Shown one piece after another: positions 48,672 to 54,041 of a stretch of 64,000 nucleotides of DNA. The stretch lies in assembly GCF_030655665.1 (NCBI RefSeq), contig NZ_JAUSPQ010000004.1:130948-194947 (forward strand), in the 5' to 3' direction. Source of the DNA: Methanocorpusculum sp. GTDB taxonomy: Archaea > Halobacteriota > Methanomicrobia > Methanomicrobiales > Methanocorpusculaceae. Position 1 is the first letter of the stretch. Each line of letters opens with the position of its first letter. The position numbers and the translations under genes are program-made. Below the pieces are notes generated by a model, which made no database searches, had not been told where the DNA came from, and saw only the letters and a program-made list of their open reading frames with translations.

Positions 48672-49421
48672 TCAGACAGGAGATTCGATATAAGGGATGG
48701 GGAGGATAAACGATTTGGTTAAGACCGTGATCGGGCTATCCGATGCCCTCGGAATAAATGTAGATGGGACAATACGTATTATCAACATGTCATCATAAAG
48801 TTCAAGAGGTGCGATACTAGAGCCATACTTTGCCTGATACTCGTTCGCTTTAATATACTCCCAAGTAATATCCTTTTTTTCTTGCGTTGGAATGTCTCCC
48901 TGATAATAGATCACACTAATAGAGCCGGTTCCATCTTTCAGGAATTCCATCATAACCTCATTAGAGACAGTGCCTTCTATCGTACCGTTCCAAAGTCCGA
49001 CAATTGCATCGGGGGAAGTAGCTAAACGATTCATAGTGAGCTCAAAATCGATATCAAAGTCGGCAATACCCATCTTCTTCGGGTTCATCGTAATGGTAAG
49101 CGTATCTCCGGTCAGATAGATCGCCAGTGAACTGTCACCGCTCTTTCCAACATACTGGTTGCCTGATACATACTCCCAGTTCAGGTTTGCATTCAGATTT
49201 TTGCTCATTCCACCGCCGCTGATACTTCCGGTAAGTTTTGCAGTACCATCTTCATTACACTCAAGAGTCAGATCGTAGGAAACAGGCGAACCGCTATCTA
49301 CGCTCACCCAGGTACCAGCTAATTCATACGGGGCTGTATCAGTTGTCGCTGCAATACAACCTGCAGCACTCACGCAGACAAGGAGAGTCATAAGCATCCC
49401 AAAAAGAAGTTTACCATTCAT
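48672..49421 (-). CDS. Lipoprotein with duplicated GTWV domain, copy 2
   Basis: A 249-aa protein with signal sequence and lipobox SAAGC, then two related domains. The first (residues about 30-130) is nearly identical to the corresponding part of the lipoprotein at 49735-50514, while the second has diverged (VGLWNGTIEGTVSNEVMM). The pair arose by tandem duplication that also copied part of the beta-RFAP synthase gene. Function unknown. The extended C-terminus is not shared with its twin. Confidence 0.75.
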   Translation of the reverse strand: MNGKLLFGMLMTLLVCVSAAGCIAATTDTAPYELAGTWVSVDSGSPVSYDLTLECNEDGTAKLTGSISGGGMSKNLNANLNWEYVSGNQYVGKSGDSSLAIYLTGDTLTITMNPKKMGIADFDIDFELTMNRLATSPDAIVGLWNGTIEGTVSNEVMMEFLKDGTGSISVIYYQGDIPTQEKKDITWEYIKANEYQAKYGSSIAPLELYDDMLIIRIVPSTFIPRASDSPITVLTKSFILPIPYIESPV

Positions 49422-49491
49422 ATTATCTATTTTTGGAAGAGAAGGGGGTTAAAACTTTTCTCTGTGGTATTACTCAGGAACCATGCGGCAG

Positions 49492-49683
49492 TTAATTTGT
49501 GGTGATACGGATCCCGGTTGTTGTCGAGTTTAGTGATGACAGATACCTCCAGACCGGCATTGTCATCTTCGACGAATGGGTGCTGGTAAACATGGGTCAG
49601 CTGATTGCCGGGAATATTCATGCCGCCGTAGATCGAGATGGTAGCACCGACACCGATCTCGAAGTAAAACATGATCTCGCCTA
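49492..49683 (-). pseudogene. Remnant of a duplicated beta-RFAP synthase gene
   Basis: This stretch aligns with two blocks of the intact gene at 50585-51664: the ATSIYGGMN...THVYQHPF region and the last codons. Relative to that copy it lacks about 42 bp and 327 bp, each deletion ending at a short direct repeat (TCTTCG and AGACCG in plus-strand sequence). A one-base insertion near the end shifts the frame. The 5' two thirds are absent. It is not expected to be functional. Confidence 0.85.
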
Positions 49684-49734
49684 GCTGAGAGATGAAAATA
49701 GTTTGAGTAAACTGATGCGAAAAAAAAGATTGGG

Positions 49735-50514
49735 TTATACTTTGCTCGTCGGGATCGAGAGCGGATTATCCAGTCCCTCGACACCGAGCTTGGATGGGAT
49801 AAGTGTTACAACAAGCTCCGTACCTACGAGCTGCAGAGGCAGCATCTCAGATCCGTACTTTGCCTGATACTTGTTTTCGTTCAGATACTCCCAGGTAACA
49901 TCCTTGGTAAAGGACTTTTCCTGTCCCATTACATTAAATGTGCCTGCGATAGTACCGGTCCCGTCAGCTTTGTAGACCATGGTAAGGTCATAAGAAACAA
50001 CACCGTCTTCTGTACCTTTCCAGCTTCCTACGACCGCATCAGGAGATGTGGTGGTTGGAACGACTGTTGGCGTCTTCGTGGCAGTAGCAGTCGAAACAGC
50101 GCCGGTCGAACGTTTCATATTGACATCAAAATCGATATCAAAGTCGGCAATACCCATCTTCTTCGGGTTCACCGTAATGGTAAGTGCATTTCCGACCAGA
50201 TAGATCGCAAGTGAATTGTCACCGCTCTTTCCAACATACTGATTGCCTGATACATACTCCCATTTCAGGTTTGCATTCAGATTTTTGCTCATTCCTCCGC
50301 CGCTGAAGCTTCCGGTAAGTTTTGCAGTACCGTCTTCGTTACACACAAGAGTCAGATCGTAGGAAACGAGCAAGCCGCTTTCTACGCCCACCCATGTACC
50401 TACGAGGGCATCCGGAGCAGTTTCCGTTGGTGGGGTTTGGGTTCCGACACAACCCGCGACACACACACAGACCAGAAGGACAACGAACACTCCTCCAAGA
50501 AGTTTAACATTCAT
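49735..50514 (-). CDS. Lipoprotein with duplicated GTWV domain, copy 1
   Basis: A 259-aa lipoprotein with signal sequence and lipobox CVAGC. Two repeats of a lipocalin-like domain start at GTWVGVESG and GSWKGTEDG, separated by a Thr/Pro linker (about residues 136-155). The first repeat contains LTITVNPKKMGIADFDIDFD. It lies 70 bases downstream of the beta-RFAP synthase gene. Its twin is at 48672-49421. It is likely attached to the outer face of the membrane; the ligand is unknown. Confidence 0.75.
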   Translation of the reverse strand: MNVKLLGGVFVVLLVCVCVAGCVGTQTPPTETAPDALVGTWVGVESGLLVSYDLTLVCNEDGTAKLTGSFSGGGMSKNLNANLKWEYVSGNQYVGKSGDNSLAIYLVGNALTITVNPKKMGIADFDIDFDVNMKRSTGAVSTATATKTPTVVPTTTSPDAVVGSWKGTEDGVVSYDLTMVYKADGTGTIAGTFNVMGQEKSFTKDVTWEYLNENKYQAKYGSEMLPLQLVGTELVVTLIPSKLGVEGLDNPLSIPTSKV

Positions 50515-50584
50515 ACATTCTATTCTTGGAAGAGAAGAGGGTTAATACTTTTCTCTGCGGTATTATTTCAGGAGCGATGGGCAG

Positions 50585-51664
50585 TTAATTTTTGGTGATC
50601 CGGATCCCGGTGTTGTCGACTTTCGTGGTGACCGATATCTCCAGACCGATAGCGTCCAGGATCGGTTTCATGTCCTGTTCGATTTTTTCGGTGACCACAC
50701 AGATCGAGGGGCCGACCGAACTCATCGCGACGAACTCAAGACCCGCCTGCCTGAGTGCATTCATGTACTGATATATTATGAATGTGTGGTGCTGGACCTC
50801 TGCACGTTTCGAACCACGGAACTCGATCTCCCACATGATATCCCCCATCTTTTTAAGATCGCCTTTTTCGATCGCAGGGATCATATCCATCATGATCATG
50901 TAGGCTTTGAGTTCACGGTCACGATAGTCAAGGGTCCGTGCACGGTTCATGAGAAGGGAGAACTCTTCGAGACCGGCGTTGTCATCTTCGGCATGGATGT
51001 TGGGTGTGATGATGAAGACATTTTTGTCTTCGGCGAACGGGTGCTGATATACATGGGTCAGCTGATCGCCGAGAATGTTCATGCCGCCGTAGATCGAAGT
51101 CGCTGCACCGACACCGGTCTCGAAGCCGAAGGCTATCTCACCGGGCTCGTTGGTCTCTTCAACATAGTTGTGACCGATCAACCTGCGGATGGTATCATTT
51201 GTGAGCGGCCGTCCTACTGCCTCATTCATGGCAGATACGACCGCCGAGGCGGTTGTACATGTGGACCCGAGACCAACGTGTTCTTTTCCATGATCATGTG
51301 TATGGATGATAAATCCTCCGGAATATCCAGTGATCGCTTTGAATGCGGCAACCAGATGTTCAATCAAAAGAATACGCGGGGAGTCGATGACCGTGCTTCC
51401 CGGAGTACAGGACACGGTCGCACTACTGTATAACTGTAATGCAAACCCAAGGCCTCCACCTCCCGGCATCCCCGGAGAGAAACGATTCATATCCAATACA
51501 GATAGGTGGATACGTGCAGGTACGGTAACGGTAAATGATCCATTTTGCGGAACGGGCGCTTTAACTACAGGAATATCTGTGTAAAGATGTTCACCAGGAT
51601 GAAAGGAGGTGAAATCATACTCGACGAGATCGAGATCGCCACCTCTGATTTTCAGGATTGCCAT
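50585..51664 (-). CDS. Beta-ribofuranosylaminobenzene 5'-phosphate synthase
   Basis: A 359-aa GHMP-superfamily protein. The N-terminal substrate strand reads VPARIHLSVLDMN, the glycine-rich phosphate loop is HVGLGSTCTTASAVVSA at about residues 133-149, and a later block reads GFETGVGAATSIYGGMN. It condenses 4-hydroxybenzoate (or pABA) with PRPP in the first committed step of methanopterin synthesis. Length is slightly above the usual 320-350. The family call is good, but another GHMP-type activity is possible. It is followed by the lipoprotein array. Confidence 0.85.
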   Translation of the reverse strand: MAILKIRGGDLDLVEYDFTSFHPGEHLYTDIPVVKAPVPQNGSFTVTVPARIHLSVLDMNRFSPGMPGGGGLGFALQLYSSATVSCTPGSTVIDSPRILLIEHLVAAFKAITGYSGGFIIHTHDHGKEHVGLGSTCTTASAVVSAMNEAVGRPLTNDTIRRLIGHNYVEETNEPGEIAFGFETGVGAATSIYGGMNILGDQLTHVYQHPFAEDKNVFIITPNIHAEDDNAGLEEFSLLMNRARTLDYRDRELKAYMIMMDMIPAIEKGDLKKMGDIMWEIEFRGSKRAEVQHHTFIIYQYMNALRQAGLEFVAMSSVGPSICVVTEKIEQDMKPILDAIGLEISVTTKVDNTGIRITKN

Positions 51665-52348
51665 GGATGTTCGTCGTTAGATGATGCGGGAGATATAATA
51701 ATGGTTTTCATGCACGAGATGTGCCTGAATAAGAGTTGTTTGAAAACACAGAGCAATATAGCATTATATGGTTTATTACACAACACAATAAGGCAATTTC
51801 CAGTGCAGATTAAGAGAAATTATTGATACAACCATACCCCACCCTGGCACGAACAGACTTGGAAGAGACCCACATAAAGAATACACGCGTGTTAGAATAC
51901 AAAGGAAACCAGATTATCAGCAGCACCAAAAATACCCATAGCCAAACTTTTTTTTCCGAACCGAACAGAGAGGAAGAGGAAACAGAAGTGCCGCCGAGAA
52001 CCTTAAAGCAAATAATTTTCCAGATCGCGAAAAATAGCTCTCCCATATCTTCGTTTTACGGCCATTTTGAGACTCCGGCAATATGATTCATCATTCAAAG
52101 CATCACAACCTCTCAAAAGCCCGTTATTTCCCTGAAGCGATCTGACCCGAAAAAATGACCCTGACGAACATCACGAATTATGCAGAATTCCCCCCAATAA
52201 TCTAAAAACCTTCAATATTCGTTTGATTTCAAAATAAAACCCAATTTGAGCTTATTTTTGAATCAAAAAATCACCAATTTATTGCGCATAATACATATTA
52301 TGCGCAATCATTATCATCACAAAGAACCAAGAGATAATCAGACCCGAT
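51665..52348. other. 684-bp intergenic region with dif-like site
   Basis: Divergent promoter region between the beta-RFAP synthase gene and the recombinase gene. It contains the 28-bp dif-like palindrome (52281-52308). An 87-codon frame at 51823-52086 has no family features or SD and is not accepted. Composition is AT-rich, especially 52200-52300. Confidence 0.55.
52281..52308 (+). other. Candidate dif (Xer recombination) site
   Basis: Two perfectly inverted 11-bp arms, ATTGCGCATAA and TTATGCGCAAT, flank a 6-bp spacer TACATA. This is the 11-6-11 layout of bacterial and archaeal dif sites. The left arm shares TGCGCATAA with the Escherichia coli dif arm, and the inner ATAA/TTAT halves match the archaeal dif pattern. 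It lies 40 bases before the Xer-type recombinase gene. It could instead be an operator for that gene. Confidence 0.7.
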
Positions 52349-53263
52349 ATGGCACCCCCAAAACGAACTTTCAGCATCTGGATACCCAGGTACCTCAGCA
52401 ATCTGCAGACGAAGAACTATGCAGCGAATACGATCGAGGCATACGGAAGGATCCTGAAACTTTTTGCAAAATACGAAACCTATCTGAAGGAGACCGACGG
52501 GGTCGTGCCGACATCCAGCGAAGAAGTGAAAAAATTCGGGATGGGGGCAGAGATCGACACGAACCCGTATGAAATCGGAGATTTTTTTACCATTTTGCGG
52601 GATGAACGGCAGCTGAGCGCGGCAAGTCTGCATCAGTATGACTCGGCACTCAGCTCCTTTTACCGATACCTGATCAATCAGGACATCACCGAAGCGAACC
52701 CCATGACCAAAGTAGACCGGCCAAAAATCAAGGATCGGGAACTCAGATATCTTAAGCACAATGAGGTGATGGATTTCATCAATTCCATTGAAAACCCCCG
52801 GAATGCACTCCTTATTCGGACGATTTATGCTACTGGAATGCGTATTTCCGAGATATGCGGCATTTTGGCGGAACATATAGATTTTGAAGAGGAAACCATC
52901 CGCGTCAGAGGAAAAGGCGGGAAGATCCGGATCGTGTTCTGCGATTCAGACACGCTAACGCAGATCCACGAACATTTGAACGGTAAAAAAAGCGGCCCGG
53001 TCTTCGAAGGAAGAAACGGGAACGCCATCTCGCCGAGAACAGTTCAGCACATCTTCAACCTCTATGCTCCAAAAGGGATCACACCCCATAAAATCAGGCA
53101 TAGTTATGCAAGTGAACTCTACAAACGTTCGCACAATCTCCGCGTAGTTCAGGAAAATCTCGGACATAACTCCATCCAGACAACGGAAATTTACATCCAT
53201 ACCGACATCGACGAGCGCAGAAAAGCGTACCGCAGCTACTTCCCACTGGCAAACGGCGAGTAA
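52349..53263 (+). CDS. xerA: Tyrosine recombinase, Xer family
   Basis: A 304-aa recombinase with a SAM-like N-terminal DNA-binding domain (about residues 10-115) and a C-terminal catalytic domain. Catalytic residues are R165 (ATGMRISEI), K192 (GKGGKIR), H247 and R250 (HKIRHSYA), H273 (LGHNSIQTT) and nucleophile Y282. It would resolve chromosome dimers at dif. The size and the single-domain layout match archaeal XerA rather than a mobile-element integrase. No att repeats or cargo were seen. Confidence 0.85.
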   Translation: MAPPKRTFSIWIPRYLSNLQTKNYAANTIEAYGRILKLFAKYETYLKETDGVVPTSSEEVKKFGMGAEIDTNPYEIGDFFTILRDERQLSAASLHQYDSALSSFYRYLINQDITEANPMTKVDRPKIKDRELRYLKHNEVMDFINSIENPRNALLIRTIYATGMRISEICGILAEHIDFEEETIRVRGKGGKIRIVFCDSDTLTQIHEHLNGKKSGPVFEGRNGNAISPRTVQHIFNLYAPKGITPHKIRHSYASELYKRSHNLRVVQENLGHNSIQTTEIYIHTDIDERRKAYRSYFPLANGE

Positions 53264-53441
53264 CACCCCCTTTTTTTCAGAATTTTTGTAGAGACTGCAG
53301 CATTGCACATCAAATATCCACACGAATCTACCTTTTTGTGTTGTGAAATAAACCGCATGATGCTATACGAAAACGTGATGTGTAATTACGAATCAGCAAA
53401 CCCTAAAATACACATAACACCCCTATATTCTGATTACAGCA

Positions 53442-54041
53442 ATGGACGAATACGAACATCTCATTGAAGACACCCCTTCGGTCGGGAACGACCGCTTTGC
53501 CGAGGAAGACCGCAGTGAAGAGATCAACAAATACCAAAAATTCAAAAAAGTTGATGGAGCCACCTACAGAAAAGTCAACATCTTCCTTAGAAAACGAACC
53601 TATATAACCGCCCGTGAATGGGCGATCGCCCGTCTGTGTTCAGATTTCAAAACTCCCTACGGCGCCGAGATGACATTCATCGGAGAACATCTGCCCGAAC
53701 TCTGCCCCTTCATGGAGGAGCCGTACAGTCCCCAGGCAGTAAATCAAGCACGTAACGCATTCAAGAGAAAGGTCAGAAAATCCGGAGCGACCTTCTTCTA
53801 CGGGGCGATGTGTGGATTTTTCACGCTGGATGAACTGGACGACATACTCTTCGAATCAAGCGAAGTCGCGAGATTCCTGCTTGAGATCGAAGGGACCTCT
53901 CTTGAGATCGATGATGAGATCGACATTGAAGATAAGATCAGCGAGATCATGCGAAAACTCGGTGAATCCGCAAACGTGCTCTTAAGCAGCAGGCGGGGAG
54001 AAGTAGAAGACGACGAGGATGACGAAGAAGACGAACAATAG
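53442..54041 (+). CDS. DUF5806-family protein
   Basis: A 199-aa soluble protein. The core KYQKFKKVDGATYRKVN, FLRKRTYITAREWAIARLC and SPQAVNQARNAFKRKV is like the haloarchaeal DUF5806 family. The C-terminal 50 residues are very acidic (EDDEDDEEDEQ). Function is unknown; conservation across Euryarchaeota suggests a core role. It lies 77 bases upstream of the sugar mutase on the same strand. Confidence 0.75.
   Translation: MDEYEHLIEDTPSVGNDRFAEEDRSEEINKYQKFKKVDGATYRKVNIFLRKRTYITAREWAIARLCSDFKTPYGAEMTFIGEHLPELCPFMEEPYSPQAVNQARNAFKRKVRKSGATFFYGAMCGFFTLDELDDILFESSEVARFLLEIEGTSLEIDDEIDIEDKISEIMRKLGESANVLLSSRRGEVEDDEDDEEDEQ

Follow-up and report, generated by a model that had tools for sequence, protein, structure and literature searches.

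A probable dif site directly upstream of xerA in Methanocorpusculum and the polar motifs, promoter half-sites and integrated elements associated with dif in Methanomicrobiales

The 64,000-nucleotide stretch of Methanocorpusculum sp. DNA analysed here (the window) possesses a 28-bp palindrome directly upstream of xerA that is very probably dif, the site where XerA would separate fused chromosomes. The whole account, to which we give a probability of about 0.92, comprises a chromosomal dif, repression of xerA by XerA and a protein bound to polar motifs around the site; the features of the sites are read from the sequence, and binding, catalysis, repression and the role of the motif are inferred. 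Archaeal Xer/dif is established (Cortez et al. 2010, PMC2958812), and the novelty lies in the system around dif, not in the existence of archaeal Xer/dif. To account for FtsK-independent control of Xer recombination in archaea, Cortez et al. could suggest only a partner that binds in the vicinity of dif or regulation of xerA transcription (PMC2958812); the present locus offers a lead on both. It contains the following features:

51756 to 51776, minus strand: left copy of the 21-bp motif, one of only two in 64 kb, polar with respect to dif and absent from the background
52281 to 52308, plus strand: dif 28-mer, a perfect 11-6-11 palindrome, unique in the genome and present upstream of xerA in relatives
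52281 to 52291 and 52298 to 52308: arms of dif, separated by the spacer TACATA (52292 to 52297)
52298 to 52308, plus strand: xerA-proximal right arm, proposed operator half-site, the same half being kept where dif has moved
52349 to 53263, plus strand: xerA, archaeal Xer tyrosine recombinase of 304 aa (NF040815, catalytic residues, sole PF00589 gene)
53348 to 53368, plus strand: right copy of the 21-bp motif, recognised on the same basis as the left copy
53442 to 54041, plus strand: DUF5806 gene adjoining xerA (PF19122, 234.6 bits)

The probable dif site and its recombinase

The 28-mer, ATTGCGCATAA-TACATA-TTATGCGCAAT (G000:C4), consists of two inverted 11-bp arms, both perfect, and a 6-bp spacer, with symmetry at 26 of its 28 positions. 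It ends 40 bp before the xerA ATG, so that the original prediction of a perfect palindrome at this distance from a Xer gene is exact. A genome-wide search allowing up to three arm mismatches recovered a single copy, as had been expected, and dinucleotide shuffles of the window yielded no comparable 11-6-11 site. About 21 of 28 positions agree with the E. coli dif. The XerA protein passes the equivalog model NF040815 (244.5 bits, cut-off 220), is similar to P. abyssi XerA (4a8e) and possesses R165, the GKGGK lysine, H247-x-x-R250, H273 and Y282, the full R-K-H-R-H/W-Y catalytic set that had been proposed for the gene, which is intact. It is the only PF00589 gene detected in the genome (98% complete). 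The DUF5806 gene adjoins the dif/xerA locus in two further genomes (G115 and G042) as well; its product is a candidate partner protein. The minus-strand region adjacent to the dif locus (48672-51664) contains a pair of similar lipoprotein-like genes. A short ORF in the same region (49427-49672) looks like a degenerate, incomplete copy of the GHMP-kinase-family gene at 50585-51664, the result of a local duplication.

Within Methanocorpusculum, dif is found upstream of xerA in 22 of 22 readable loci, at a distance of 64-75 bp from the start codon. Across these congeners the arms hardly change (mean pairwise identity 0.94-0.96), the four inner spacer bases vary (0.68 for the spacer), and the 30-bp flanks reach 0.46 and 0.53. 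Columns 4 and 25 change jointly in three congeners (G to T with C to A), by which the symmetry of dif is preserved. Constant arms next to a drifting spacer are expected of a recombinase site, in which the arms are bound and the spacer need only match that of the partner. In five other Methanomicrobiales families a palindrome matching at 7 or more of 11 positions occurs at the same distance before xerA in 69 of 70 loci, compared with 43 of 280 control windows; at 9 or more of 11 positions the figures are 45 of 70 and 1 of 280. Several outgroup loci possess 11-6-11 palindromes upstream of xerA too, and a gene-linked dif is therefore the rule in Methanomicrobiales. The anticipated conservation in relatives thus holds both within Methanocorpusculum and in the other families of the order. 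The site is present as a single copy in 18 of 18 genomes of one genus (g6), and also in the family genomes; being readable beside xerA, it can easily be annotated throughout the order.

Two groups of candidates were rejected as dif in this survey. Near matches in G014 and G019 belong to a sequence the two genomes have in common, apparently coding, and are attributed to chance. A dif-like palindrome next to the same nreA-like gene in two genera (G114:C1:1895298 and G166:C30:4001; spacer TAATAA, weak right arm) is a separate conserved element, and may be another XerA-bound or regulatory site. The near-palindrome TTGCCAATAAACGAATTTATGGGCAA is repeated at places unrelated to dif, four in G012 and two in G017, possibly as the end of a mobile element.

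In the mechanism proposed here, XerA monomers would bind the two equal arms of the 28-mer, two such sites would synapse, and strand exchange would take place at the boundaries of the 6-bp spacer, whereby a single recombinase would resolve chromosome dimers. The system described in Thermococcales (PMC2958812; Serre et al. 2013, PMC3646895) likewise has a single XerA, a 28-bp 11-6-11 site in one copy per chromosome and conserved sequences around dif, for which a bound partner was proposed (PMC2958812), but there dif and xerA are unlinked, and no half-site in the promoter is reported. The original prediction was right in naming Thermococcales and understated the known range, since dif was also predicted in Methanosphaera, a methanogen, and in Sulfolobales, where it is linked to the gene (PMC2958812). 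The predicted Sulfolobales site, near xerA as in Methanocorpusculum, is accompanied by a 13-bp conserved sequence on one side only, whereas in Methanomicrobiales divergent 21-bp motifs flank dif to the left and the right at roughly 0.5-2 kb. Among bacterial systems, XerS/difSL and XerH/difH (PMC5357621) also depend on one recombinase, and XerS is genetically linked to its site; their sites are atypical, in contrast to the classical symmetric 28-mer of Methanocorpusculum. xerA/dif modules in some archaea are mentioned by Castillo et al. 2017 (PMC5357621).

A half-site at the xerA promoter

In a sister genus (g2) the full dif is located 0.6-1.3 kb upstream of xerA, and the 12-mer ATTCTGCGCAAT stands about 41-51 bp before the xerA start in seven of seven species; it is 100% identical among them, the 30 bp to its left 33% identical. 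In G090 one gene lies between dif and xerA, and the half-site is still found at the xerA promoter. In G115 the full dif is situated beside the DUF5806 gene and a phosphoglucomutase gene, without xerA, which is located on another contig and possesses the half-site. The full dif is thus maintained even where it is remote from the promoter, and the half-site even where the promoter lacks the full dif. A search of Rfam returned no family at the displaced loci. The promoter half-site is evidently under selection, and its retention where dif has moved supports autoregulation of xerA.

In the other families a TATA-like stretch directly follows the right arm, with the start codon about 30 bp further on, so that XerA on the right arm could interfere with transcription initiation. 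Because dif lies just upstream of the promoter core of xerA, we propose that XerA bound to the right arm probably represses its own gene. The suggestion that the promoter site serves autoregulation gains indirect support from the half-sites left at the promoter, with repression as the presumed mode. A promoter element that overlaps the arm would account for the final few bases of the half-site, but hardly for all twelve.

The palindrome might also be an operator of xerA and nothing else, bound by XerA or another regulator and not a recombination site. Its promoter position, its near-constant spacing to xerA across families and the persistence of the half-site after the full dif moved would all suit such an operator. 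This alternative is nevertheless very improbable: in g2, G090 and G115 the full palindrome is found 0.6-1.3 kb from the promoter or on another contig, and the elements described below have crossed over inside the palindrome with matched spacers. A recombination site whose right arm probably doubles as an operator half-site is the reading we retain.

Polar motifs around dif and the terminus question

A 21-bp motif, ATAAACCRYATRATGCTATAY, with information content sharp over the whole 21 bp, flanks dif. The window contains just two copies in 64 kb (TAAACCRYATRATGCTATAY), on opposite strands at either side of dif, 0.5 and 1.07 kb off. The 87 loci in which dif is unique contain 148 copies, of which 145 point away from dif; both sides are occupied in 57 loci, and five have none within the short stretch examined. 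No copy was found more than about 4 kb from dif, and the background sampled from two genomes away from dif, 780 kb in all, contains none. As the motif was assembled from the same loci, its hit rate there is not independent, and related genomes are non-independent samples; its polarity and the empty background are independent. Where dif and xerA are separated (g2, G090, G115), dif rather than xerA is flanked by the copies.

The divergent motifs most likely bind a protein that would mark the dif region or give it an orientation, as functional equivalents of KOPS or the Xer accessory sequences of bacteria, and a motif this sharp and polar across the order is a possible bait for a Xer partner. KOPS and ASPS (PMC2958812, PMC5357621) share with it a polarity that reverses at dif, but they are short and repeated over the whole replichore; a 21-bp motif absent from the 780 kb sampled at a distance from dif is therefore not classed with them. 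The open-licence literature yielded no motif like it, a finding of little weight.

Each of the two copies in the window precedes its flanking gene by about 92 bp on the same strand, which leaves room for a promoter role. That the motifs are promoter elements of neighbouring genes, unrelated to dif, is unlikely all the same, given the empty background and the polarity shared by nearly all copies; moreover, the motif stays with dif among other neighbours (g2, G090, G115), and two of the three integrated elements described below have a copy of their own, 0.7-1.1 kb inside the outer dif and in the right polarity.

Bacterial Ter sites are non-palindromic and have opposite polarity on the two sides. 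The motifs match this layout in lacking symmetry, spanning about two helical turns, reversing polarity across dif and occurring in few copies within about 4 kb, and could thus be polar fork barriers which trap replication forks at dif. We know of no archaeal relative of Tus or RTP, however, the position of dif at the terminus is only suggested, and the copies in integrated elements fit recombination control better, all of which makes fork arrest an improbable function.

The terminus itself, which the original prediction had tentatively placed at dif, is compatible with the data and goes no further than a suggested position. In two complete Methanocorpusculum genomes dif and the best orc1/cdc6 gene are 154 and 146 degrees apart, and in 27 genomes the distance is 43-170 degrees, the genus means averaging 119 degrees; against a uniform model this gives P of about 0.02, relatedness being ignored. 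In 400-kb samples of two congeners (G013, G031), GC and 4-mer skews were evaluated, and a sign change of GTTC brackets dif in G013 only; with agreement in one of two congeners, no terminus is claimed. A second orc1/cdc6 gene is found 24-107 kb from dif/xerA in 14 of 27 complete Methanomicrobiales genomes, which may place dif close to a second origin of replication and not at a simple terminus.

Elements integrated at dif in relatives

Provirus-like elements are integrated exactly at dif in three relatives, G102, G132 and G042, which belong to another Methanomicrobiales family, not to Methanocorpusculum; the inserts measure 8,466, 8,697 and 8,759 bp. The G102 element is bordered by ACTTCGCAGAA-TGTCTA-TTCTGCGCAAT as outer site and GTACCTCAGAA-TGTCTA-TTCTGCGCAAA as inner site; empty relatives possess ACTTCGCAGAA-spacer-TTCTGCGCAAA. 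The outer site consequently joins the host left arm to an element right arm, and at the inner site a left arm from the element meets the right arm of the host. G132 has the same arms with the spacer TAGGTA at both ends; G042 has TGACTA at both ends, and its arms differ from those of G102 and G132. The empty relative G143 aligns to G102 with 92.6% and 94.5% identity on the two sides, and these alignments overlap only in the dif core. Insertions exactly at dif show that the homologous site recombines, a natural experiment whose footprints record strand exchange within the site for G102, G132 and G042 only. Together with the unique copy and the conservation of the palindrome, they lend strong support to the chromosome dimer resolution site that had been predicted for the window; with the retained half-sites and the polar motif they bring the dif reading near certainty.

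The three inserts contain no PF00589 match and no XerA-like match, and integration by the host XerA is the simplest reading; the insertions hence point to integrase-less archaeal elements that would use XerA. The elements could once have used a different recombinase supplied in trans, against which stands xerA as the sole PF00589 gene of G102. A serine resolvase gene adjoins dif outside the insert, on the side opposite xerA, in G102 (L175:10913-11515, minus strand) and G132 (L176:11205-11840, minus strand).

The packaging ATPase of the elements was found in only three of 232 genomes searched, in each case within the element at dif, and resembles STIV B204 (E 6e-4). This ATPase and the gene layout suggest that the elements are proviruses. 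Their putative small capsid proteins gave no recognised relative and no detectable solved relative, and IMG/VR yielded neither a relative of the ATPase nor a dif palindrome. Matches in IMG/VR to the element end site are unrelated phage coding sequence, and those to the 21-bp motif were rejected as dif flanks, all being inside ORFs, several of them within a gene region that they share, and none with a convincing dif in the vicinity.

Integration at dif with a dif-like end site, and without a recombinase of their own, characterises these elements as it does the IMEXs described in bacteria (PMC9765430), of which e.g. LME-1, like them, integrates at dif and leaves one intact and one modified site. 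They differ from IMEXs in their archaeal XerA hosts and the STIV-like packaging ATPase. The open-licence literature contained no archaeal element integrated at dif by XerA, which is again slight evidence; the XerA-using elements, the 21-bp motif and the retained half-site appear to be undescribed, the flanking sequences of Thermococcales being known here by description only. A more far-reaching picture, to which we give somewhat less than even odds, is a composite dif locus in Methanomicrobiales whose core is also the xerA operator, whose divergent motifs, at distances of up to a few kb, would recruit an archaeal protein in place of FtsK/KOPS (or cause Ter-like fork arrest), and parts of which integrase-less virus-like elements would copy in order to integrate with XerA.

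The dif spacers of Methanocorpusculum form a small set that includes the reverse-complement pairs TGTCTA/TAGACA and TACATA/TATGTA, even between loci with similar flanks (e.g. L012 and L013). The element-bearing genomes have matched spacers, and elements targeting dif might drive the spacer turnover. An IMG/VR contig, L214 (IMGVR_UViG_3300001567_000010), contains the 21-bp motif inside an ORF, and one of its proteins is related to a protein of the G102 element (40% over 81 aa, E 9e-9); it is possibly a related virus. L137 (G008:C47, 3947 bp) combines a dif-like site, ATTGCGCAGAA-TTACCA-TTTCACGCAAT, with a P4-type primase/helicase gene and no recognised recombinase. Its 127-bp terminal overlap marks it as probably a circular plasmid of about 3.8 kb, which may use the host XerA.
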